From IMG/VR virus record IMGVR_UViG_3300027985_001430, positions 1-25,440 of that record: a stretch of DNA of 25,440 bases. The stretch is one strand, 5' to 3'. The translations under genes and the position numbers were made by a program. Positions within the stretch are counted from its first letter, which is position 1; every line of letters starts with the position of its first letter. The notes under the pieces are model-generated. The model saw only the letters and a program-made list of their open reading frames with translations, was not told the origin of the DNA and did not search any database. This DNA comes from a virus. This document shows, piece after piece, positions 5,606 to 25,239 of this stretch.

Positions 5606-7348
5606 TTAAAACCACATCCAGCTGACTTCATTAATGGAAACGTCAACCGTTTCACCGGTATTCCTACCTTTTAATCTGACAGCACCGACCAATTTCATGC
5701 CAACTCCCTCTTCCGCATTATTTCTGATACATTTCGCAAATGTAAATTTATAAATATCCGTTTCCATCATTTCTACGTCTTTAATTTCCATATCCTGTAA
5801 ATTCTCATCATCTCCGGCATCTACAAGACTAATTATTCCCTGAACATCAATTCTCATAATTACAGCTGTGGCGGTATAGCTGTATTTTAAATTTTCAGTC
5901 ATTGATAAAACATTACTGGCGATACTATCAATTGTTTTTATTTCCAGCTTTTCATTCTCCCTAATCAATACCCTGTCCCCGGCCTCAAATTGAGAAGCAT
6001 CTGATATCTCAACATCAGCCTGATCAGCGCTTGCCACACCAGCCAGATTTTTCTTTTCAACTATGTTCTGCTCAACATAGCAATTAACATTTATTGTTTC
6101 ATTTTCAGTCTCAATATTCTGTGTAAAATACCAGCCATATTTTGTCCGTCCTTCAGCCCCTGAAGAATAGCCGGTTGCAAAAGTTGGTGAACTGGTACCG
6201 GATATCACTCCGGCTTCAATTCTTACTCTTCCATTCCCGCCATGACCTCCTTGACCCTGAGAACTTAAGGTTCCATAAATATAGCCCAGTCCACCAACAC
6301 CACCATTAGCATGAATTAGATTAGAATTGATTGATGCTCCCAAAAGGCATACTATAAATACCGTTCCTCCGGCACCACCACCGCCCCCGCCCGACCGAAA
6401 GCTTGTGCTGTAAGCCTGCCCATCTTGGCCATCGTTTCCATTACAGTCAATTTCTCCTTCAACTACTAAAGTTTTGGTTTGTATCCTGATAATTCCCCCG
6501 CCAGAGCCACCTGAGCCAGCCTTTGTTGAAATACCGCCACTACCACCGCCTCCGCCTGAACCTCTTAAATATGCCAAGGTAAAAGTTGATAACTCAGCAT
6601 TGTTATACGTTGCCCCACCTTGTCCTGCGGCGTCTCCGGATATTAGGTTGCCTGTTCCACCCCCTGAACCATATCCTCCTCCACCACCGCCTCCGCCGGA
6701 ATTTTGCGAACTGGGATCAGCACAACCACCGCCTCCGCCGTTTCTTACTCCACCAGACACATTACTTCCTGTTCCTAACTCGGATGATCCTTGCTGGGCA
6801 TACGGCGAACCGTGCGAACCGCCGGAATGTCCTCTTCCTTTTGCGCTCAATACTCCACCGGCTTCAATCTTGAATTCTCCACGACATTTAATATTAAAGT
6901 TACCATTTACATATACAGTATGTCCGCTTTGAATCAATACGCTGTTAAAATTCATTTCACTCGACCAGGTAATATTTCCGGAACTAACAAAATCACCATC
7001 ACTGCCATCCCCAAGCTCAGGCGCAATCGGACGAATATATTTCCCATTTCCCGTATCCAGCACACCCATATATTTGCCAATTAGAGCCCCCAGAGGATAG
7101 GAATACACCAAATTGGCTGTCATGGTTAAAATATTGCCGTTCTTTGACTGAATTGTAGCCGTTTCAAAAGTACCATCACCATCATAAACTATAACCATTT
7201 CGCCTACAGTAAACTGAGAACCATCACCAACATTAATGTCAGTCTGACCGCTTAATGCTTCGTCTGTTAAATTATCGAATAACTCATCCACAATTGAATT
7301 GTCCAATAAGTTATCTTGTTTTATTCCTATTAGCTGTCGTATTGACAT
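5606..7348 (-). CDS. Tail fibre/adhesin with glycine-rich domain and duplicated flanking module
   Basis: A 580-residue structural protein. Residues about 36-92 and 444-500 are two copies of one small beta module (compare NVGDGSQFTVGEMVIVYD with EISDASQFEAGDRVLIRE, and ILTMTANLVYSY with VLSMTENLKYSY). Between them, residues about 115-165 look like a beta-solenoid (GHTVYVNGNFNIK), and about 170-380 are very rich in glycine with runs of 5 to 8 Gly. Glycine-rich domains of this type form polyglycine II bundles in the receptor-binding adhesins of some T4-like phages (such as S16 gp38), so a host-recognition role is inferred. It lies between tail-tip genes and the lysis cassette, the normal place of a receptor-binding protein. 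Confidence 0.75.
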   Translation of the reverse strand: MSIRQLIGIKQDNLLDNSIVDELFDNLTDEALSGQTDINVGDGSQFTVGEMVIVYDGDGTFETATIQSKNGNILTMTANLVYSYPLGALIGKYMGVLDTGNGKYIRPIAPELGDGSDGDFVSSGNITWSSEMNFNSVLIQSGHTVYVNGNFNIKCRGEFKIEAGGVLSAKGRGHSGGSHGSPYAQQGSSELGTGSNVSGGVRNGGGGGCADPSSQNSGGGGGGGGYGSGGGTGNLISGDAAGQGGATYNNAELSTFTLAYLRGSGGGGGSGGISTKAGSGGSGGGIIRIQTKTLVVEGEIDCNGNDGQDGQAYSTSFRSGGGGGGAGGTVFIVCLLGASINSNLIHANGGVGGLGYIYGTLSSQGQGGHGGNGRVRIEAGVISGTSSPTFATGYSSGAEGRTKYGWYFTQNIETENETINVNCYVEQNIVEKKNLAGVASADQADVEISDASQFEAGDRVLIRENEKLEIKTIDSIASNVLSMTENLKYSYTATAVIMRIDVQGIISLVDAGDDENLQDMEIKDVEMMETDIYKFTFAKCIRNNAEEGVGMKLVGAVRLKGRNTGETVDVSINEVSWMWF

Positions 7349-10029: not shown

Positions 10030-11670
10030 CTATCCCAGTAAATTGCTGGCTTTTAATTTCTTGATCATTAAATCACCGATCCGCTCTGCTCCTTTGCGGT
10101 CCATAATCGTATTGCCTGAAATATTTACATTAATCACCGTGTTCTTACCGCCTAGCCGGTTATTAGGAATAATATTCCCACTTGCGCCCGGTACAAACAA
10201 TTCTGGCCCGGCTTCACCGACAACATAGGCCTTAGTTGGGCTGACAAATCCGCCGACTGCCCGGCCTCCGCCGAATCCCAGCGTATTGCCAATGGCGTTC
10301 TTCGCGCCCTGCACGATATTGAGCCTCTGAATACTGCTGATCAATTTGTCTATCCAGTCAATCACTTTTGATATTGTGGTGGTTGTTGCATCCCAGATTC
10401 CCTTAAATTTTTCTATGCCTGCGTTAGCCGCTTCAATAATGGTGGTTAAGGTCTGAATCAGGGCAATTAAGCTGACCTCAATAATCTTTGTTACCGCAAT
10501 CAGAGCGCCCAGTAAAATAACACCGATAATCTGGGCAAATGTTTCCAGAAACGGCATTAAAGGTTGCAAGGCTTCCCAGAGTTTCTGCAGTTCCGGCAAC
10601 AAGTTCTCCCTGAATACCAGAGCCACATTGTCCCAGGATGTCCTGAATATGGTTAAAAGACCCTGATAACGGTCAATAATATCCATCCCGGCCCTGACTG
10701 CATCCGCGAATTTGCCGGATACGTCAATCACAAATGAAATAGCGGTTTTTAATCCCTCAAAGGCCGTCATTAAAACCTGCCCGATAATATCGGCTGTGGC
10801 TTTGAGTTGCGGATTGATTTCGTTTTCTTCCGTGAATGCCCAGGAACGAAAACTTTTAATTGTCTGATAGACATACTCAATACTCGGCTTCATAGCATTA
10901 TCAAGCATATCTCCAAGAATTAATTTGAGGCTTACAATCCCGTCTTTAACTGAGTTCGATATTTTGTACCAGCTGTTCATGGCCTCGCTGTACGAGCCTT
11001 CCATTCTGGTGGCTTCTCCGATCATGGCATTGTACATGGCCTGCGATTTTTGTGCGTAAGTCAATTCGCTGGTTTTAATCCCGAGCTGAGTGGCCACATC
11101 AGAATAAACCTTGACCAGATTCATCTGAATGCCGTATTCGCTTAACAGCTCCGGCCGGAGTTTAACCACCGCTTCCATCATGGATTTGATTGCTTCATTG
11201 GAATTCTTGTTTGAAGCGGCCGCTACATCCCTGCCCCGGGCCACGATTTCCAAAGCCTGACTCTCACTCATATTGGTCATAATGGCGGTCTTGGTCAGTT
11301 CAATCGCGGTCAGCATGTCCTTGTTTTCCTCTCTGATGCTTTTCACCAGACTGTCTATCTGCTTTTTGCTCCAGTTATTATTTTCCCCCAGTTTATAAAT
11401 AACCGCTTTTGACTGCCCCAGTTGGCCGGTCAGGCTGATGCTTTCCTTAACCAGACTGCCGATACCGCTGGCCACCTTGCTGATCGTTCCGGCAATGGCG
11501 CTATAAGCCAGATTGCCGACCGCCACCGCCTTGGCCATGGAACCAAAAGAACTGGATGTAGTCTTTACACCTTCTGACATGCCGTTTAAAGCCTCGCTCA
11601 CTTTTTTCATTTCCGAGCTGGCGTTATCAACGGCTTTTAGTATGATTTGCAGTTCCTTGTTGTCGCTCAT
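10030..11670 (-). CDS. Tape measure protein
   Basis: A 546-residue protein, largely helical, with hydrophobic stretches (about residues 46-72 and 375-410) and coiled segments. Near the C-terminus (about 467-504) is the pattern GGFVSPTKAYVVGEAGPELF followed by VPGASGNIIPNN, which is very common at the ends of tape measure proteins. In siphophages this protein sets tail length and is ejected with the DNA. At about 0.15 nm per residue a tail near 80 nm would be expected (inference). The gene overlaps the frameshifted tail chaperone extension by 44 bp, as H does with T in lambda-like phages. Length is on the short side for the family. Confidence 0.92.
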   Translation of the reverse strand: MSDNKELQIILKAVDNASSEMKKVSEALNGMSEGVKTTSSSFGSMAKAVAVGNLAYSAIAGTISKVASGIGSLVKESISLTGQLGQSKAVIYKLGENNNWSKKQIDSLVKSIREENKDMLTAIELTKTAIMTNMSESQALEIVARGRDVAAASNKNSNEAIKSMMEAVVKLRPELLSEYGIQMNLVKVYSDVATQLGIKTSELTYAQKSQAMYNAMIGEATRMEGSYSEAMNSWYKISNSVKDGIVSLKLILGDMLDNAMKPSIEYVYQTIKSFRSWAFTEENEINPQLKATADIIGQVLMTAFEGLKTAISFVIDVSGKFADAVRAGMDIIDRYQGLLTIFRTSWDNVALVFRENLLPELQKLWEALQPLMPFLETFAQIIGVILLGALIAVTKIIEVSLIALIQTLTTIIEAANAGIEKFKGIWDATTTTISKVIDWIDKLISSIQRLNIVQGAKNAIGNTLGFGGGRAVGGFVSPTKAYVVGEAGPELFVPGASGNIIPNNRLGGKNTVINVNISGNTIMDRKGAERIGDLMIKKLKASNLLG

Positions 11671-11854
11671 TTATTTTTTTATTACGCTCTATTATGAAAG
11701 TGGCAACTTCATTGATAAAATCCCAGCGCTGATTCTGGTACTCCTGTTCGGTCCAGCCCATCTCCACACATACAAAAGCGCGAAAGCCTTCATAGCTGAA
11801 ATGACCGATCCGGACAAACTTGGCTACTTCGAACCACGAGCTTTGCTCTCCTCT
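11627..11854 (-). CDS. Tail assembly chaperone T extension (GT product by -1 frameshift)
   Basis: No start codon is needed: this 75-codon frame continues from the chaperone G gene after a -1 slip at 11854-11860. It reads RGEQSSWFEV, then AKFVRIGHFSYEGFRAFVC, MGWTEQEYQNQRWDFINEV and ends HTKSR before TGA at 11627-11629. The fused GT would have 171 residues (96 from G plus 75). T-type extensions of siphophage chaperones recruit tail tube subunits to the tape measure. The stop lies 44 bp inside the tape measure gene, a typical lambda-like overlap. It explains the gap of about 150 bp between G and the tape measure. Confidence 0.85.
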   Translation of the reverse strand, partial: RGEQSSWFEVAKFVRIGHFSYEGFRAFVCVEMGWTEQEYQNQRWDFINEVATFIIERNKKINERQQGTANHTKSR

Positions 11855-12141
11855 AAAAAATCCTGTACAAACTTTAAGCTTTCAACAATAAACCGAATAT
11901 CCTCAAAGCTGAATAGATTGACGTTTTCCGGTGTAATTGGCAGTTTCTGTTCTTTCTCATCCGTGGCATCCCAGTCCTCAATTACTCTACTAAAAAGAAC
12001 CAAAGTTTGCCTGATATCACCCTCCTCCTTTTCAATCGCTTCCACATCAGTTGCCAGAACGCCATCCCTGATTTTGATGGTTATTCCGCTTTTGGGAAGC
12101 TTTATGTTTTTAACTTCTCTTATGTCTTTTAATACTGGCAT
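11824..12141 (-). CDS. Tail assembly chaperone G
   Basis: A 105-residue protein, start taken at ATG 12141 (MPVLKDIREVKNIKLPKSG), 4 bp after the tail tube stop; a longer frame to 12162 would overlap that gene. Pattern: an N-terminal beta region (SGITIKIRDGVLATDV) and helices to SFEDIRFIVESLKFVQDFLEE. Chaperone G proteins bind the tape measure and keep it ready for tube assembly. Identification rests on place (between tube and tape measure), size, and the -1 frameshift extension, which together are characteristic of long-tailed phages. Confidence 0.85.
   Translation of the reverse strand: MPVLKDIREVKNIKLPKSGITIKIRDGVLATDVEAIEKEEGDIRQTLVLFSRVIEDWDATDEKEQKLPITPENVNLFSFEDIRFIVESLKFVQDFLEESKARGSK
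11838..11860 (-). promoter_or_regulatory. Programmed -1 frameshift site (T TTT TTA) with downstream hairpin
   Basis: On the minus strand the heptamer T TTT TTA (11860 to 11854) lies in the exact X XXY YYZ phase of gene G: codons GAT TTT TTA. Nine codons later G ends at TAG. Five nt after the heptamer is a small stem GAGC-AAA-GCTC (11848-11838). T TTT TTA is the same slippery heptamer used by HIV-1 gag-pol. The shift joins G to the T frame. Confidence 0.85.
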
Positions 12142-12145
12142 AGGC

Positions 12146-13120
12146 TTAATAGCTTGCAACAAGGTTGGTCAGTGTGGCTTCAATGCTTTTACTGTCACTT
12201 GCTGAATAAAAAGCCTTGAAACTGGCCGCTACCTTGGCAATTTCATTATTATCACCGCTAATAAGCGGCTCTCTTAATTTTATTTTGGCTAAGTCAATAA
12301 CCAGCTTGGGATTACTGCTTGCACCGATCGTAACATCGCCGTTTACGATTTCAATCCGCATCGCTTTCTGGTTGCCATTTAAGGTATAATCCATTAATAC
12401 CGTATCCTTAAAATTCATCTCAATTGAGCCTTCAATCGTCAACTGCTTATTTAAGAAATCCGCCGGTTCAATGCTTCCGAGCTTATCATCATCTTCGATG
12501 TTTTTATTGATATTGATCTCCACCTTTTTGACATCAATGGCGCTTGAGCCGGCCAGTCCGGCCATATCATCCGCCAGCCTCACATTGATATGCTGGCCTA
12601 AAAAATAATTCTCGGTAATATATCCGGGTGCATTGGCTTCCGCTACTCCGGCCTTGCCCCGCAGGGCAATTTCATACTTCAGATACTGGTTAACGGCCGC
12701 ATCCAGCTTGAATGTTTCGATTACCGAATTGGGATAAGCTTTTTGCTCATTGTCGCCCCTTTTAACCTCGACCGTCAGCGTTGGGTGCTTGGCTGACTGC
12801 AGAACCGCAAAAACATGGTCATATACACCAGTGTCCGCGGTTTCCACGCTCCCAACCTGGCCAAGCGTAGCTAAAAGAATCAGGCCAAAACTTTCATCAA
12901 ACACCTCGCCGGTAACCGTGCCTCCGCTCATTTTCTTGCTGATTTCCTGATCCTCGCTGTCTTCAATTACCCCCACAGCCCGCTCACTGACTGCTACTTC
13001 GATTTTGTCGTTAATATCTTCAGACAAAGGCTTTAGCCAGTAGCTGGGCGCCACCTTAACTCCTCTGGCGGTTTCTCTGCCAATGCCGATATTAAATTTG
13101 CGCTTTATTAATTCCGTCAT
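12146..13120 (-). CDS. Major tail tube protein
   Basis: A 324-residue protein from ATG 13120 (MTELIKRKFNIGIGRETARG); a TTG five codons upstream is possible but needs no preference. Features are the N-terminal GIGRETARGVKVAPSYWL, MSGGTVTGEVFDESFGLIL and a long beta-rich remainder (KYEIALRGKAG, QLTIEGSIEMNF). This is typical of siphophage tube proteins with an added Ig-like or insertion domain. Such proteins stack in hexameric rings around the tape measure. It lies between the tail terminator and chaperone genes. A 9-bp hairpin precedes the gene. Confidence 0.85.
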   Translation of the reverse strand: MTELIKRKFNIGIGRETARGVKVAPSYWLKPLSEDINDKIEVAVSERAVGVIEDSEDQEISKKMSGGTVTGEVFDESFGLILLATLGQVGSVETADTGVYDHVFAVLQSAKHPTLTVEVKRGDNEQKAYPNSVIETFKLDAAVNQYLKYEIALRGKAGVAEANAPGYITENYFLGQHINVRLADDMAGLAGSSAIDVKKVEININKNIEDDDKLGSIEPADFLNKQLTIEGSIEMNFKDTVLMDYTLNGNQKAMRIEIVNGDVTIGASSNPKLVIDLAKIKLREPLISGDNNEIAKVAASFKAFYSASDSKSIEATLTNLVASY

Positions 13121-13135
13121 ATTGTTGTATTTCAA

Positions 13136-17323: not shown

Positions 17324-19393
17324 TTACAATGGAGTAAAATCGCATTTGCAGTTAGGATGAGTCTGACCCGGGATCTGTCCCTCAATGCTTTTGACCGTCC
17401 ATTCCTCCAGGCTCTTTACAATACATAAACTGCAGGCGCCGGGCGATAACAGCCATTCCACATCAGTATAGCCGTAATGCTCATAGGTCTTTCGGTGCGC
17501 TTCTACCACACCCCGGGATGTTTCGGTCCGGGCGATCATATCCGCCCGCGAATCCTTGGCAAAATCAAAAACCGCTTCCACCCTCTTGCTTAATTTCCCA
17601 ATATCTTCTCCCTCAGCAACACCCTCTTTCAGGGCTTCGGCAAAATTATCTATAGTCGTGTTATTAATCGTTTCTCCGGTTTCCTGGCTCACTTTAGCCA
17701 ACCACTCCCTGATAAAATCCATATCCACAATCATATCCTCGCCAACCAGTTCACTGGCTCCTCTTATGCCGGACATAACCGTCTCATACATCAGGGGTGA
17801 AATCAGGTCAATTGTAGCCTGTAATTCCTGGGTTTTACTGACTCCGTAATCTCCGGCAGTGTCCTTTTTGTAATTCTCTTTTAAACTTTCTATAAAGCGG
17901 ATTTTCTGCGCTTCAAAAAATTCAATAAATTTGCTTTTCCATAATTTCTCCAGCTGCACTTCCTGTTCCATGCGGGATTTATAAAACAACTCTTTTTGCT
18001 CGTCGCTTACTGTCTTTGTTTTATCTTTAATTATTTTTAAAACAACTTTTTTCTCGCCCTCAATTTTACTGATAATTTTATCCGTGGCTTTCCGGGCGAT
18101 TTTATTTATTCTCAGATTCCGGTTTAATATCCGCCTCTTTATGAGCTTTTGTGTTTTCAGGTTAATCTGTCCGCTTCTTCCGGCCTTTATTTTTATAAAC
18201 TGCTCCTGTTTTTGTTCGCCTCCGATTAACGGCATATTAGACAAGGGCATATAAATATAATCTCCGCCATTAACCGCTTCCAGTCCTTCCATTTCTCTGA
18301 TTTCATTAGTAGTCATCCATTTATTCCAGCTTTCAGTCTTTCTTTTTAAATCCATTTCCTGATCATCCCGGGCCAGTGGCTCAAAGGAAAGCCAGAGGTC
18401 GGTCCCAAATTTCGGCACTAAAAATTCATTCAACTGCTCAACCATTTCCGTGGCCAAAGGCTCCAGTGTCCATTTATTAAACACATACTCGGCCGCAACC
18501 GCACTGGCGCGGTTAACATCTTCAAACACACCCAGCACCGGCTTGGGTACGCCGAAAATAGAAAGTATTTCATCCCGGTTCATCTTCCGGCTTTCAATAA
18601 AATCCAGATCCTTCGGGGGCAGGCTGACCTGCTTATACTTCATTCCGCCCTCAAGAAGCATCGGCTTATAAGTATTCTCATAGCCCTGATATTCTTTCTC
18701 AAATTCCTTTTTAAGCCTTTTTCTTGTTTCCCTGCTGACATTGCTACTAGTTTCCAAAAACCCGCTCGGCCGGGCGTTGTTTTTGAGAAGATTGCTGTTT
18801 GACTGCAAAATATAATCATCATTCTCAGCGGTCATCCTGACGGCCTCAATCACGCCTATTCCCCGGTCGGGATTGCGGGGATTATAATTTTTTAAAAATA
18901 TCACTTCATCCGGCGAATAAGTTTTTTTGAATGTGCCGATCTGATAGGTGTAGCTCTGTAGCTGTCCATTCTTGTCTTTTTGCACCCGGAAGTATTCCGG
19001 CCGGGCAATGTAAATATTGCTTGGATATTTATCGCTTTCGTTAACTTTGGTCAGTACCCAGGGGCTGGCACCAAGTAAATCTCTGTAGATTATGCTTAAC
19101 TGAATAAAATTATATTTGGTCATTTCAGGGTTAACCCGATACAAAAGCTCCAGTAATTCATGTTCCAGGATTTCCTCCACATCGCCGTTTTTTTTAAGCC
19201 GGTAAAGCCTGAACTCAATCTGCGCCAAACCCATGCTTCTTCTCGCGACACATGCATATACCCAGGACTTATAAAAATCCAGGGCATCGCTTTTGGTAAT
19301 CACTCTGGCCATCATGCCAGTGTTCATAAAAAACGAGAACGGCACAGCTCCTTTGTGAACGATTGATTGGTATAATCTTTTAAAAATATTCAT
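17324..19393 (-). CDS. Portal protein fused to a MuF-type head morphogenesis domain
   Basis: A 689-residue fusion. Residues 1 to about 390 are an HK97-type portal: FYKSWVYACVARRSMGLAQI near the N-terminus, IYIARPEYFRV, ADDVIFLK-like SPDEVIFLKNYNP, and MNRDEILSIFGVPKPVLGV. After a Lys/Arg-rich linker (about 400-470) comes a helical region and a MuF domain: IARTETSRGVVEAHRKTYEH, then C654-x2-C657 and H679-PN-C682-K-C684, the usual possible metal site of this family. Portal proteins form the dodecameric DNA gate; MuF is a minor head protein, sometimes ejected. Most phages encode them separately; fusions are known but less common. Start codon 19393 is 5 bp after the large terminase stop. Confidence 0.93.
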   Translation of the reverse strand: MNIFKRLYQSIVHKGAVPFSFFMNTGMMARVITKSDALDFYKSWVYACVARRSMGLAQIEFRLYRLKKNGDVEEILEHELLELLYRVNPEMTKYNFIQLSIIYRDLLGASPWVLTKVNESDKYPSNIYIARPEYFRVQKDKNGQLQSYTYQIGTFKKTYSPDEVIFLKNYNPRNPDRGIGVIEAVRMTAENDDYILQSNSNLLKNNARPSGFLETSSNVSRETRKRLKKEFEKEYQGYENTYKPMLLEGGMKYKQVSLPPKDLDFIESRKMNRDEILSIFGVPKPVLGVFEDVNRASAVAAEYVFNKWTLEPLATEMVEQLNEFLVPKFGTDLWLSFEPLARDDQEMDLKRKTESWNKWMTTNEIREMEGLEAVNGGDYIYMPLSNMPLIGGEQKQEQFIKIKAGRSGQINLKTQKLIKRRILNRNLRINKIARKATDKIISKIEGEKKVVLKIIKDKTKTVSDEQKELFYKSRMEQEVQLEKLWKSKFIEFFEAQKIRFIESLKENYKKDTAGDYGVSKTQELQATIDLISPLMYETVMSGIRGASELVGEDMIVDMDFIREWLAKVSQETGETINNTTIDNFAEALKEGVAEGEDIGKLSKRVEAVFDFAKDSRADMIARTETSRGVVEAHRKTYEHYGYTDVEWLLSPGACSLCIVKSLEEWTVKSIEGQIPGQTHPNCKCDFTPL

Positions 19394-19398
19394 AAAAA

Positions 19399-20838
19399 CT
19401 ATAAACTTGATATTCTCAGTACCGCTTCTTTGCGGTCATAGAAAGTAAAGCAGAGCGCATCCCAGAAATCAGGGCTGGGAACTCCTCGTGCCAAAAGATC
19501 GTCTTTTGATTCCATCTGGATCTTGCCGTCTCCACCACTGGCTACTTTCCACTTAATCTCATCAACTTCGGCAAATTCAGAGCCGTAAACTCTGCCCTCT
19601 TTTTCGGTAATCATTTTTTTGGCTTTGAAGTTTGCTTCCGCCTTGATGTTTATGTACAGATTCATGCCCTCTTCTGACGGCTTATCATTTGCCCGGCAGG
19701 CATTAACATAAATCTCCTCCTCTTCCAGCCGGTCCACCACGCCTGATCCGACACCGACCACGTCCACAAACACGTCATAATCGTCAATTTTTTCCTCTCG
19801 AGAGATCAGCTTAATCTCATCCACGATTTTCATGGTGTTGCGGGTCTTCATCTTGCGCTTGATATATGCCCGCGGTTTGCCGGTTGCTTTATCGATCCCC
19901 CTGATGACAAACACTGTCCAGTTCCCGCCTCTGGCTACATCAACCCCGAGCTTTTTCCCGTGTTTCTTCAATTCCGGCTTTTCCTGGCAGTACATCACTT
20001 CCTGTTCCCGGGATGTCATCAATTTCCGGTAGCCTTTTGAATCCACATCATCCTCATCAGGGAATAAGCACTTATACAAAATATTCGATAATGGCAATTT
20101 CAAAGCCTTGTCCAAAAACTCTTTTGTATAACGCCCTTCTCTTAAAGCCTGATAACAATCGATATAAATTTTAAAATAATCCTTATCTTTCCATGTTTTT
20201 AAAAAATGATTATTGTGAAACGGATTGCCGATTTTGATATAGCAGGACTGAACACGCTCATTCCCGATTTTTTGTTTACCGGCCACCATCCTGAATACCG
20301 TGGCCTCAATCTCATCCGGAATCAAAGCGCTCTCATCCTGAATCACAATCCGGCCGCCTTCTCCCATGACTGACTTGACCCCCGACACAACGCTTCTGGC
20401 TTCAACACTTAAAGCAAATAATCCTCCGCCATTTCTTAAAACAATCCTGTCCTTGCTGGCTTCCTGCCTTAACATGTCAATCTTATCTTTCTTTTCAAGA
20501 AGTGAACTGAACATCGGACTATCGCCAATATGCTCAATGTAATACCGCATTATCTTTTTTGCCTGTTCTTTTTTCGGTGCTACTACCGGAATCAGTTCAC
20601 CCTGAATACAGCTCACAATAATGCAGGCCAGAGCCACGATCAAACTCTTTCCATACTGCGTACAGGCTATGATTTGAATGTACTCAAAATGCCTAAATAC
20701 TATTGCCCAGAAAATTACCAATTGCCCCGCGGTTATCACTTCGCTTGCCCGGTAGCCTTCTATGTTGAAATTAGCAAGCAGTGATAAGCATACTTCACGT
20801 TCCTCCGGCGGTATTTTTGGTAACTTTACTTTTAGCAT
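19399..20838 (-). CDS. Terminase large subunit
   Basis: A 479-residue DNA packaging motor. ATPase domain: Walker A-type CTQYGKS (residues 59-65), Walker B IVIQDES (Asp168, Glu169), coupling-type motif KIGNP. Nuclease domain (RNase H-like fold): GVDVARGGNW (Asp300), VFVDVVGVGSGVVDRL (Asp359) and SPDFWDAL (Asp457/Asp460) provide the metal-binding acidic residues. All key residues are intact. It pumps DNA through the portal and cuts concatemers. Its start lies 44 bp inside the small-subunit gene, suggesting coupled translation. Confidence 0.96.
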   Translation of the reverse strand: MLKVKLPKIPPEEREVCLSLLANFNIEGYRASEVITAGQLVIFWAIVFRHFEYIQIIACTQYGKSLIVALACIIVSCIQGELIPVVAPKKEQAKKIMRYYIEHIGDSPMFSSLLEKKDKIDMLRQEASKDRIVLRNGGGLFALSVEARSVVSGVKSVMGEGGRIVIQDESALIPDEIEATVFRMVAGKQKIGNERVQSCYIKIGNPFHNNHFLKTWKDKDYFKIYIDCYQALREGRYTKEFLDKALKLPLSNILYKCLFPDEDDVDSKGYRKLMTSREQEVMYCQEKPELKKHGKKLGVDVARGGNWTVFVIRGIDKATGKPRAYIKRKMKTRNTMKIVDEIKLISREEKIDDYDVFVDVVGVGSGVVDRLEEEEIYVNACRANDKPSEEGMNLYINIKAEANFKAKKMITEKEGRVYGSEFAEVDEIKWKVASGGDGKIQMESKDDLLARGVPSPDFWDALCFTFYDRKEAVLRISSL

Positions 20839-21278: not shown

Positions 21279-21443
21279 TTAATTTGGGTAACTTTTGCGC
21301 CAAATCTCTATTTTTTTAGAGTATTTCTCTAACCTCGCTTTATTCCTGAATAATCGGTAATTTTTACACTTCTTTTTCATGCAATAATTGAATACTTTGC
21401 CGGTCTTAATCTCCTCCTGTTTCCTCAAGCAGTAAAAAATCAT
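21279..21443 (-). CDS. 54-residue basic Cys-containing protein
   Basis: From ATG 21443 (overlapping the methyltransferase stop as ATGA) the minus strand encodes 54 residues starting MIFYCLRKQEEIKTGKVF, with NYCMKKKCKNYR, ending WRKSYPN before TAA at 21279. Cys5, Cys21 and Cys26 with many Lys/Arg suggest a small nucleic-acid-binding or metal-binding protein, though a full four-ligand site is not visible. It fills the 170-bp gap before the small terminase gene with 13 bp to spare. Confidence 0.7.
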   Translation of the reverse strand: MIFYCLRKQEEIKTGKVFNYCMKKKCKNYRLFRNKARLEKYSKKIEIWRKSYPN

Positions 21444-22678
21444 AATTTCTTAGCCTTAAGCGATGTATGCTCCTCCCAGCGCTTGATAATAACATCAACA
21501 TATTTGGGGTCCAATTCCATACAAAAACATTTCCTTTTAAGTTGATCACACGCCATAAGCGTTGATCCAGAACCGCCAAATAGGTCAACTACAATATTTC
21601 CTCTTTCGCTGTTTTTCTTTAAAGCCCTTTCGGGAAGTCGTAATGGTTTTTGAGTAGGATGCACGTAATTCTGCGTAACATCCCTTTTCTCATACCAAAC
21701 ATCCATCAGCTCGCTGAAATCATCGAAATCCAAATGAAATACATCTTTTAAATTATTTATTTTCTTATTTTTAAAATGACTCTTTTTATTTTTCCAACCA
21801 ACCATGCATGGCTCATACTGCCGATGATAATCCTGCCCGCGTGAAAATACCATTGAATTTTTAAGCCAAATAATAATCTGGCTCATATGCCAGCCAGCCT
21901 GTTCAAAGGCCTGCCGGTTTATCCAGTTATTCTTATTGGCAAACCACCAATAAATCGTTACGTCATCAGTCGTGTGATTATATAAATTTTTTAAAATATC
22001 GGTGTAAAATTCCAGACATTCTTTATCGGTTTTTTTGTCGTTGAATATTTTGCCACCACTCCCGCCGAATTTAGTTGAACTGTAATCTAGTCCACCCGGC
22101 GATTTGTAATCAACATTATAGGGCGGGTCCGTAAATACCATTCTCCCAAGTTTGCCGTCCATTAATTTCTCAACATCTTCCGCTTTGGCTGAATCACCAC
22201 ACATTAAGCGATGTTCTCCCAGTTGATAAATATCTCCCAGTTTTGCATTTGGCTTTTTGATTTTCTTATACTCCTCTTCGGCATCAAACTCATCCTCTTC
22301 AATCTCGGCTATAAGATCCTTGTCAAAACCAGTTAATTCCAAAATACTCTCATCAAGCTCTTTTAATTCTTCAATTACCAATTCCATCTCCCAATCACTC
22401 TCATTAAGCTTATTATCTGCCAGACGATAAGCTTTGGCCTTTTTAGCTGGAAGATTAACCGTAATGCAGGGCACTACTTTTAATTTAAGCAACTTAGCGG
22501 CTTCAAACCTCCCATGTCCGACTATGATCACTTTGTTCTTATCCAAAACCAGGGGCTGGTTAAAACCAAACTCCTTGATGCTGTCAGCAATCTGTTTGAT
22601 CTGTTTAGCCGGGTGCTTTTTAGCATTCTTCTCGTATGGTTTTATGTCTTCAATTTTTATTTCCTCCTCTTTTGCCAT
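21440..22678 (-). CDS. ParB/Srx-domain DNA methyltransferase (N6-adenine or N4-cytosine)
   Basis: A 412-residue fusion. Residues about 8-115 form a ParB-like N-terminal domain (IKPYEKNAKKHPAKQIKQIA, GHGRFEAAKLL at 54-64, KAYRLADNKLNESDW). Residues about 145-405 are an amino-methyltransferase: LGEHRLMCGDSAKAEDV, motif IV TDPPYNVDY (DPPY at 184-187), HPTQKP, and motif I DLFGGSGST at 365-373. The order IV before I is the beta class. It would methylate phage DNA, most likely against host restriction or to mark packaging or replication. No restriction endonuclease gene is adjacent, so it is an orphan enzyme. The target sequence cannot be read from the gene. Confidence 0.95.
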   Translation of the reverse strand: MAKEEEIKIEDIKPYEKNAKKHPAKQIKQIADSIKEFGFNQPLVLDKNKVIIVGHGRFEAAKLLKLKVVPCITVNLPAKKAKAYRLADNKLNESDWEMELVIEELKELDESILELTGFDKDLIAEIEEDEFDAEEEYKKIKKPNAKLGDIYQLGEHRLMCGDSAKAEDVEKLMDGKLGRMVFTDPPYNVDYKSPGGLDYSSTKFGGSGGKIFNDKKTDKECLEFYTDILKNLYNHTTDDVTIYWWFANKNNWINRQAFEQAGWHMSQIIIWLKNSMVFSRGQDYHRQYEPCMVGWKNKKSHFKNKKINNLKDVFHLDFDDFSELMDVWYEKRDVTQNYVHPTQKPLRLPERALKKNSERGNIVVDLFGGSGSTLMACDQLKRKCFCMELDPKYVDVIIKRWEEHTSLKAKKL

Positions 22679-24047: not shown

Positions 24048-25205
24048 TTACTTAGCATCTTTGGCCTCCTTTCTAGCTTTTACCGTTTTTTTTACGCTGT
24101 TTTTATTATCATTCGCCACATCAGGAAACTCCTTGGCAAAATGATCCTTAATATTTATTTTTAATGTTTCGAGTCCGGCCTCAAGTTCAGCCAAACCTTT
24201 CTGTTTTATTTCCTCCCAGCTGTTGGTGTTAAAAACCAACTCTGATATTTCAATCCGTGATTTCTTGTCAGCCGCACCGGTGCTTGGCCAGGCTTTGAAT
24301 AACTCATTGGTAATTTTTTCCAGAGTTATCTCTTTGTTTCTGATATACTGCCTTTTGTCCTCCTCGGTTTTAAACAAACCGCTTGAGTCTGTTTCAGTCA
24401 CCTCCCTTCTTTCCGGATTGGCCAGCATATCGTCAATGGCCGGGGCAAAATTCTCAAAGTTTGGATTAATGAAAGTTTTGCCGTCAATTAAAGTCGACCG
24501 GTCTTTAATGACTGTAGCCTGGCGATATACTTTTTTATCCTTACCCAAAATCTCTTCAAACCTTTCCATAAGGACCAGAATATCCGGTTCATAGGCGGTT
24601 TCTCCCTCGACTTTCATTTTGACTCCCGATTTATAAATTTCCCTTTTGCCGGTGTCCGCATTAATCTCATTCTCGTATTCATATCCGGCTCTACCGCACA
24701 TGATGATGTGATACGGATCCCTAACTAATGGATCGGAAAATTCAGCTTTCCACATCGGCTTCAAGATTCCCCAGTCCTGGAACTGCAGATGATTGCGGTT
24801 CATTTTCCTCTTAAACGCTTCAACCGTGTCCTCCCAGACATGGGAAATTGAGTCAATCAGGAAAATATCACTGATCCCGGTTTCTCTCATGATTCGCATT
24901 GACTCCTTTAAATCAGCCAATGTCCTTGATTCCTTAACCAACAGTTCAATCCCCGCTTCATTAAATACTCTTTTTAAGAACTTAGCCGCCTTTTCAGTGT
25001 CGAACATGACAATTGGCTTTTTCGATTTAATCTTTTGATGTAAACCGATTGCCACCAAAGCTGATGTGTAGGTTTTACCTGATCCGGCAAACCCCTCAAA
25101 AGCGGCTTTAAAATACGGCTTGGTATTGGCCACCTGCATAAAAAAGTTGGCCAAATTTTTTGTAGACTGCGCCGTTGCAGCCTTTGTTAATGTTTTTGAT
25201 TGCAT
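24048..25205 (-). CDS. RecA-like AAA ATPase (AAA_24, phage Sak4-like annealing/recombination ATPase)
   Basis: Start taken at ATG 25205 (MQSKTLTKAA, 385 residues); ATGs at 25217 and 25238 are in frame and possible. The ATPase core has Walker A GFAGSGKT (38-45), a MFDTEKAA strand-helix, Walker B DIFLIDSIS (Asp118) with SHVWED next, and a later QATVIKDRSTLIDGK region. It matches AAA_24/Sak4 proteins, which help single-strand DNA annealing and recombination in phages. The C-terminal third is helical and charged, ending in a basic tail (KKTVKARKEAKDAK). It is the first gene of the minus-strand unit in this window. Confidence 0.88.
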   Translation of the reverse strand: MQSKTLTKAATAQSTKNLANFFMQVANTKPYFKAAFEGFAGSGKTYTSALVAIGLHQKIKSKKPIVMFDTEKAAKFLKRVFNEAGIELLVKESRTLADLKESMRIMRETGISDIFLIDSISHVWEDTVEAFKRKMNRNHLQFQDWGILKPMWKAEFSDPLVRDPYHIIMCGRAGYEYENEINADTGKREIYKSGVKMKVEGETAYEPDILVLMERFEEILGKDKKVYRQATVIKDRSTLIDGKTFINPNFENFAPAIDDMLANPERREVTETDSSGLFKTEEDKRQYIRNKEITLEKITNELFKAWPSTGAADKKSRIEISELVFNTNSWEEIKQKGLAELEAGLETLKINIKDHFAKEFPDVANDNKNSVKKTVKARKEAKDAK

Positions 25206-25215
25206 ATAATTCTGC

Positions 25216-25239
25216 ATTGGACTCTCGCAAAAATCCAAT
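25216..25239. promoter_or_regulatory. Inverted repeat before the ATPase gene
   Basis: ATTGGA (25216-25221) and TCCAAT (25234-25239) are perfect 6-bp arms with a 12-bp spacer. They stand directly upstream of the ATPase start at 25205 and overlap the -35/-10 area of a weak plus-strand promoter (TTGGAC 25217-25222, 16 bp, TATTAT 25239-25244). It could be an operator for either direction. Chance remains possible for arms this short. Confidence 0.35.

Follow-up and report, generated by a model that had tools for sequence, protein, structure and literature searches.

Probable programmed -1 frameshifting at a T-rich heptamer in the tail assembly chaperone genes of a phage likely to infect Paceibacteria

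Conservation of low-level -1 frameshifting between the tail genes G and T is widespread among long-tailed phages (PMC5009743). In phage lambda the fusion protein GT binds the tail tube subunits through its T part, and the partner of G is the tape measure protein (PMC5009743). A second described system is the HK97-type tail assembly chaperone cluster of GeneTack, in which the tail chaperone likewise changes frame and for two genes of which frameshifting of 6-7% was measured with reporters in E. coli (PMC3711429). That study selected A-rich heptamers (PMC3711429), and a T-rich site such as the one described here would have been missed. In the open-access literature searched, a scope that Xu 2004 (Mol. 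Cell) falls outside, no T-rich slippery sites were found in tail chaperones, and frameshift or tail-assembly terms were not found in two recent papers on Patescibacteria phages. The seven bases and the slippery phase of the site discussed here are identical to those of U_UUU_UUA in HIV gag-pol, but only the heptamer is common to the two, as there is no homology and both the ribosome and the downstream context are different.

The DNA analyzed here (the window) comprises positions 1-25,440 of the IMG/VR record IMGVR_UViG_3300027985_001430, a stretch of 25,440 nucleotides. Its G and T frames very probably encode a tail chaperone pair of the lambda G-GT type, expressed by programmed -1 ribosomal frameshifting in a long-tailed phage whose host is probably one of the Paceibacteria, which are ultra-small bacteria. 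The site is real but of an ordinary kind, already familiar from phage lambda, and the initial annotation was right to file it as a known design; what sets it apart is the T-rich heptamer and, probably, the host from the candidate phyla radiation (CPR).

As with gpG and gpGT of lambda, two products would be made from one message by a -1 shift near the 3' end of G, the genes lie between those for the tail tube and the tape measure protein, and the T domain would be made only as a fusion. All of the genes concerned are on the minus strand. The major tail tube protein is encoded upstream of G (12146..13135, an ORF listed from its TTG; Phage_tube_2, E 1.7e-17; phrog_290, E 9e-29) and the tape measure protein downstream (10030..11670; tape measure PHROGs, E to 6e-11), so that the order in the window, tail tube, G, tape measure, is the lambda-type G-GT arrangement. 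The tape measure ATG falls within the end of the T frame in the window. T continues for ~10 codons beyond this ATG in the clade of the window and terminates within the first codons of the tape measure gene in others. The systems differ in the heptamer, which is G_GGA_AAG in lambda and T_TTT_TTA here, and in the host, which is E. coli for lambda and probably a member of the Paceibacteria here. The likeness to lambda G and T is one of arrangement and analogy.

Gene G (11824..12141, minus strand) encodes the N-terminal part of the tail assembly chaperone, with 105 amino acids from ATG to TAG. Its start was placed at the ATG at 12141 and not at the upstream TTG at 12162 on the basis of a conserved MP[IV]LKD N-terminus. 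The AlphaFold2 model of G has a mean pLDDT of 89.6, and tail assembly chaperones top its BFVD search with E 1.3e-4 and 5.7e-4; the former is that of Bacillus phage Gemini, with a TM score of 0.63. The modeled fold thus resembles tail assembly chaperones and bears out the role that had been proposed for G from the letters of the sequence. No family was matched by G in a Pfam search, the sole significant PHROG match is annotated as of unknown function, and nothing was matched by the model in a PDB fold search. The identity of G to the window version ranges from 98% down to 36% among the relatives, with a pairwise minimum of 25%. The TAG of G lies shortly 3' of the heptamer and such a stop is retained in all relatives, which argues that both products are wanted.

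The T frame (11627..11854, minus strand) is -1 relative to G and consists of 75 codons followed by a TGA at 11629-11627. Together with the 96 residues of G through the TTA, these 75 codons give a predicted GT protein of 171 amino acids, whose junction peptide in the window would read ...FVQDFLRGEQSSWFEVAK or ...FVQDFFRGEQ.... The coordinates of G, the slippery phase of the heptamer and its distance of nine codons from the stop had been reported correctly to the base, and the -1 frame of 75 codons to 11627 and the predicted 171-residue product were likewise confirmed from the sequence. When nine relatives were compared, the T-only region 3' of the G stop had a mean pS of 0.79 and a mean pN of 0.18 in the T frame, as opposed to pS 0.19/pN 0.31 and pS 0.25/pN 0.30 in the other two frames. 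These values indicate that the region is evolving as a protein under purifying selection in the T frame and in no other. The T model is a helical domain with a pLDDT of 79; T alone found no match in a BFVD fold search, and the T of the window alone matched no PHROG. Weak matches to phrog_9001 ('tail assembly chaperone') were obtained with five of eight homologues of T, the best with an E of 0.022. The earlier view that the frame reads like a protein is therefore upheld by purifying selection, and its assignment to a tail chaperone family is tentative. No match was found when GT and TerL were searched in INPHARED phages. The predicted GT supplies a gene product that is missing from the annotation of this phage group.

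The slippery heptamer T_TTT_TTA (11860-11854, minus strand) stands in the context GAT TTT TTA, which is the X_XXY_YYZ phase of G, and nine sense codons separate it from the TAG. It is the only XXXYYYZ in slippery phase within G. Among the ORFs scanned in the window there are three further in-phase T_TTT_TTA, and a single in-phase site therefore proves little; it is conservation that carries the case. IMG/VR was scanned for close relatives with three queries, namely G, T and the tape measure protein, and a T profile then brought in more distant relatives. Bacterial genomes were scanned as well, which led to one Candidatus Paceibacterota metagenome-assembled genome (MAG), and a search of its class led to a second genome. 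Related phages with the heptamer out of phase or with stops in the T frame had been named in the initial annotation as what would speak against frameshifting. All T-type relatives have T_TTT_TTA in phase and an uninterrupted, conserved T frame, which makes 20 distinct G/T pairs including the window, drawn from many samples and two bacterial chromosomes; more distant homologues have an A run at the same place, as discussed below. Across 13 G genes that were aligned, Phe95 is TTT in 13/13 and Leu96 is TTA in 13/13, and the invariant leucine columns 4, 15 and 89 use 3, 4 and 4 different codons, respectively. From the codon usage of the window (GAT 0.69, TTT 0.77, TTA 0.29), the chance of the codon string GAT TTT TTA is roughly estimated at ~15% per lineage, and the invariance of the heptamer over roughly ten deep lineages thus appears far beyond chance, even as a rough estimate over lineages that are not fully independent.

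By the mechanism proposed, most ribosomes would terminate at the G stop and release G, and a minority would slip by -1 through tandem slippage of tRNA-Phe and tRNA-Leu on U_UUU_UUA, enter T and make GT. By analogy with lambda, the partner of G would be the tape measure protein and GT would use its T part to recruit tail tube subunits, and both G and GT would depart before the tail is completed. The gene order, the in-phase heptamer, the conservation of the site and of the T frame, and the fold resemblance of G are observed; that the ribosome makes the slip, at what rate, and what G and GT do are inferred from these. In E. coli A_AAA_AAG is shiftier than U_UUU_UUA (PMC5009743). The lower shiftiness of U_UUU_UUA would suit a low GT fraction, with the reservation that this is an E. 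coli figure that may differ on Paceibacteria ribosomes.

Stimulatory elements were sought on both sides of the heptamer. No conserved Shine-Dalgarno-like stimulator was seen by eye in the sequences 5' of it. The small stem 5 nt downstream in the initial annotation does exist in the window as the mini-hairpin GAGC-AAA-GCTC (11838..11848, minus strand), but no close relative keeps all four of its base pairs, so that it is specific to the window and probably incidental. A possible larger stem-loop region with an approximate span of 11785..11848 (minus strand) is not beyond chance in the window, where the downstream fold has p 0.29-0.49 against a null of synonymous recoding. Several members reach p 0.006-0.02 against synonymous recoding of T at their best folding length, values whose significance is inflated by taking the best of three lengths. 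Four relatives (L011, L012, L018 and L020) have a stem GCCAAuCCGC/GCGGuUUGGC that begins 6 nt downstream of the heptamer, and L050 has a related stem that is shifted. In L047, L048 and L083 the stems AGCGACC/GGUCGCU, AGCGGCC/GGUCGCU and AGCGACGAA/UUCGUCGCU begin ~5 nt downstream, with one C-G to G-C change among them. No stable structure downstream of the heptamer was found by folding in L084-L086 and L089, and a stimulator conserved across the whole family was not found. The stems in some clades are suggestive, and they do not appear to be a defining part of the site.

The split between G and T could be explained in other ways. Transcriptional slippage, in which the T run makes RNA polymerase stutter and the ribosome reads the shifted mRNAs in the pool normally, has in its favor that T6 is a homopolymer run and that the sister homologues L088 and L091-L096 carry an A run of ~8-10, a length known to slip (An, n>7; PMC3711429). 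The threshold for T runs is n>8 (PMC3711429), whereas each of the 20 T-type sequences has a run of exactly six T, never longer, and then an A. Tandem tRNA slippage is also the better fit for an exact X_XXY_YYZ phasing with an invariant A, and we consider slippage by the polymerase improbable. It is less likely still that T is a separate gene with its own start codon whose overlap with G is incidental. The T of the window does contain a GTG at codon 29 and an ATG at codon 31 (counted from zero), and GTG, TTG or ATG codons also occur inside T in some relatives. These starts are scattered over unconserved positions, none is present ahead of the conserved domain, and most of them would cut off at least a third of it; in L050 the only start codon is at codon 40. 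The statement in the initial annotation that the T frame has no start codon accordingly holds for the sequence before the conserved domain and not for the whole frame. A separate gene would, in addition, give no reason for the TTT TTA codons to be invariant.

The two other explanations have next to no probability. Indels are possible in metagenomic contigs and could have split a single G+T frame, either as a sequencing error or through decay. An example may be the relative L098, whose G is apparently broken by several frame changes, so that it is probably an assembly error and not a natural in-frame G-T fusion. The same split and the same heptamer in the 20 distinct sequences from many samples and two bacterial chromosomes, along with the purifying selection on T, speak against an error or a decayed gene at this locus. 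Readthrough of the G TAG would extend G in its own frame, and in the window that frame is indeed open for some codons past the stop. The relatives show no coding pattern there (frame offset 1, pS 0.19, pN 0.31), and stops occur in the G frame past the TAG, for example in L011; the pS/pN pattern specific to the T frame rules out that the G frame is read through or that the region is non-coding.

The A-run sisters L088 and L091-L096 have homologous T domains with G-like partners in the same -1 arrangement, and their overlap has A_AAA_AAA or A_AAA_AAG within the A run and no T_TTT_TTA. The use of A runs by these more distant homologues of the pair indicates that the slip site has turned over within the family while the protein pair was kept. 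The run lengths for transcriptional slippage (A runs n>7, T runs n>8; PMC3711429) are not reached by the T-type members with their six T, and the A-run sisters are within range. A runs of ~8-10 can also slip in transcription, so not all of the A-type members may work on the ribosome. A speculative and rather unlikely extension is that recoding itself was swapped within one family, the T_TTT_TTA members being ribosomal and the A8-A10 sisters partly or wholly dependent on transcriptional slippage. Alternative recoding mechanisms are used for dnaX in different bacteria; if the swap were true, tail chaperones would offer a case of one protein ratio being set by alternative recoding mechanisms. The natural variants of the site (T6A, A runs, with and without stems) are a ready list for comparing frameshifting.

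The host of this contig is inferred from its relatives. L050 is on an 81-kb contig of the Paceibacterota MAG, where the prophage has rpsI, rpoA and further ribosomal genes on one side and an integrase on the other, and a related prophage in the second genome (G363) adjoins ftsZ. Since these two near relatives are prophages in chromosomes of Paceibacteria (Patescibacteria/CPR), the window is probably a Paceibacteria phage, and the integrated state of both suggests that it is of the temperate type. The first prophage comprises L050, L053 and L054 (G001 contig C24, beside rpsI/rpoA, integrase L053:9873-10781) and the second L062 and L063 (G363 contig C28, beside ftsZ/ftsA). The recoding site is thus well conserved in phages that are probably those of Patescibacteria, and little is known of decoding by the ribosomes of these hosts. 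Loss of the ribosomal protein bL9 by the host was considered as an aid to frameshifting and was rejected; bL9 was not found in the G001 MAG and is present in G363 and in 136/192 sampled genomes of the class. Among the genomes sampled from the class of G001, the bL9 N-terminal domain was found in 136/192 as compared with 183/192 for uL3, a patchy distribution that is uncorrected for genome incompleteness.

An AAA-type protein of the window (24048-25235) is 88% identical to its counterpart in the first prophage, which also speaks for a Paceibacteria host. The large terminase of the window (19399-20838) has only 27% identity, over the C-terminal 164 residues, to that of this otherwise close prophage (L054:2899-4263), and the difference between these two proteins suggests that this phage group has exchanged its packaging gene. 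Several other genes of the window were also identified. One ORF of 689 amino acids (17324-19393) combines a portal protein with a Mu F-like domain at the C-terminus (Phage_portal, weak Phage_Mu_F), and an N6/N4 DNA methylase is fused to a ParB-like N-terminal domain (21440-22678). A Fic/DOC family protein whose C-terminal region is winged-helix-like (1857-2942) lies where the phage gene set ends. At 5606-7348 there is a 580-amino acid glycine-rich protein with long GGGG runs, which is probably a tail fibre or adhesin.
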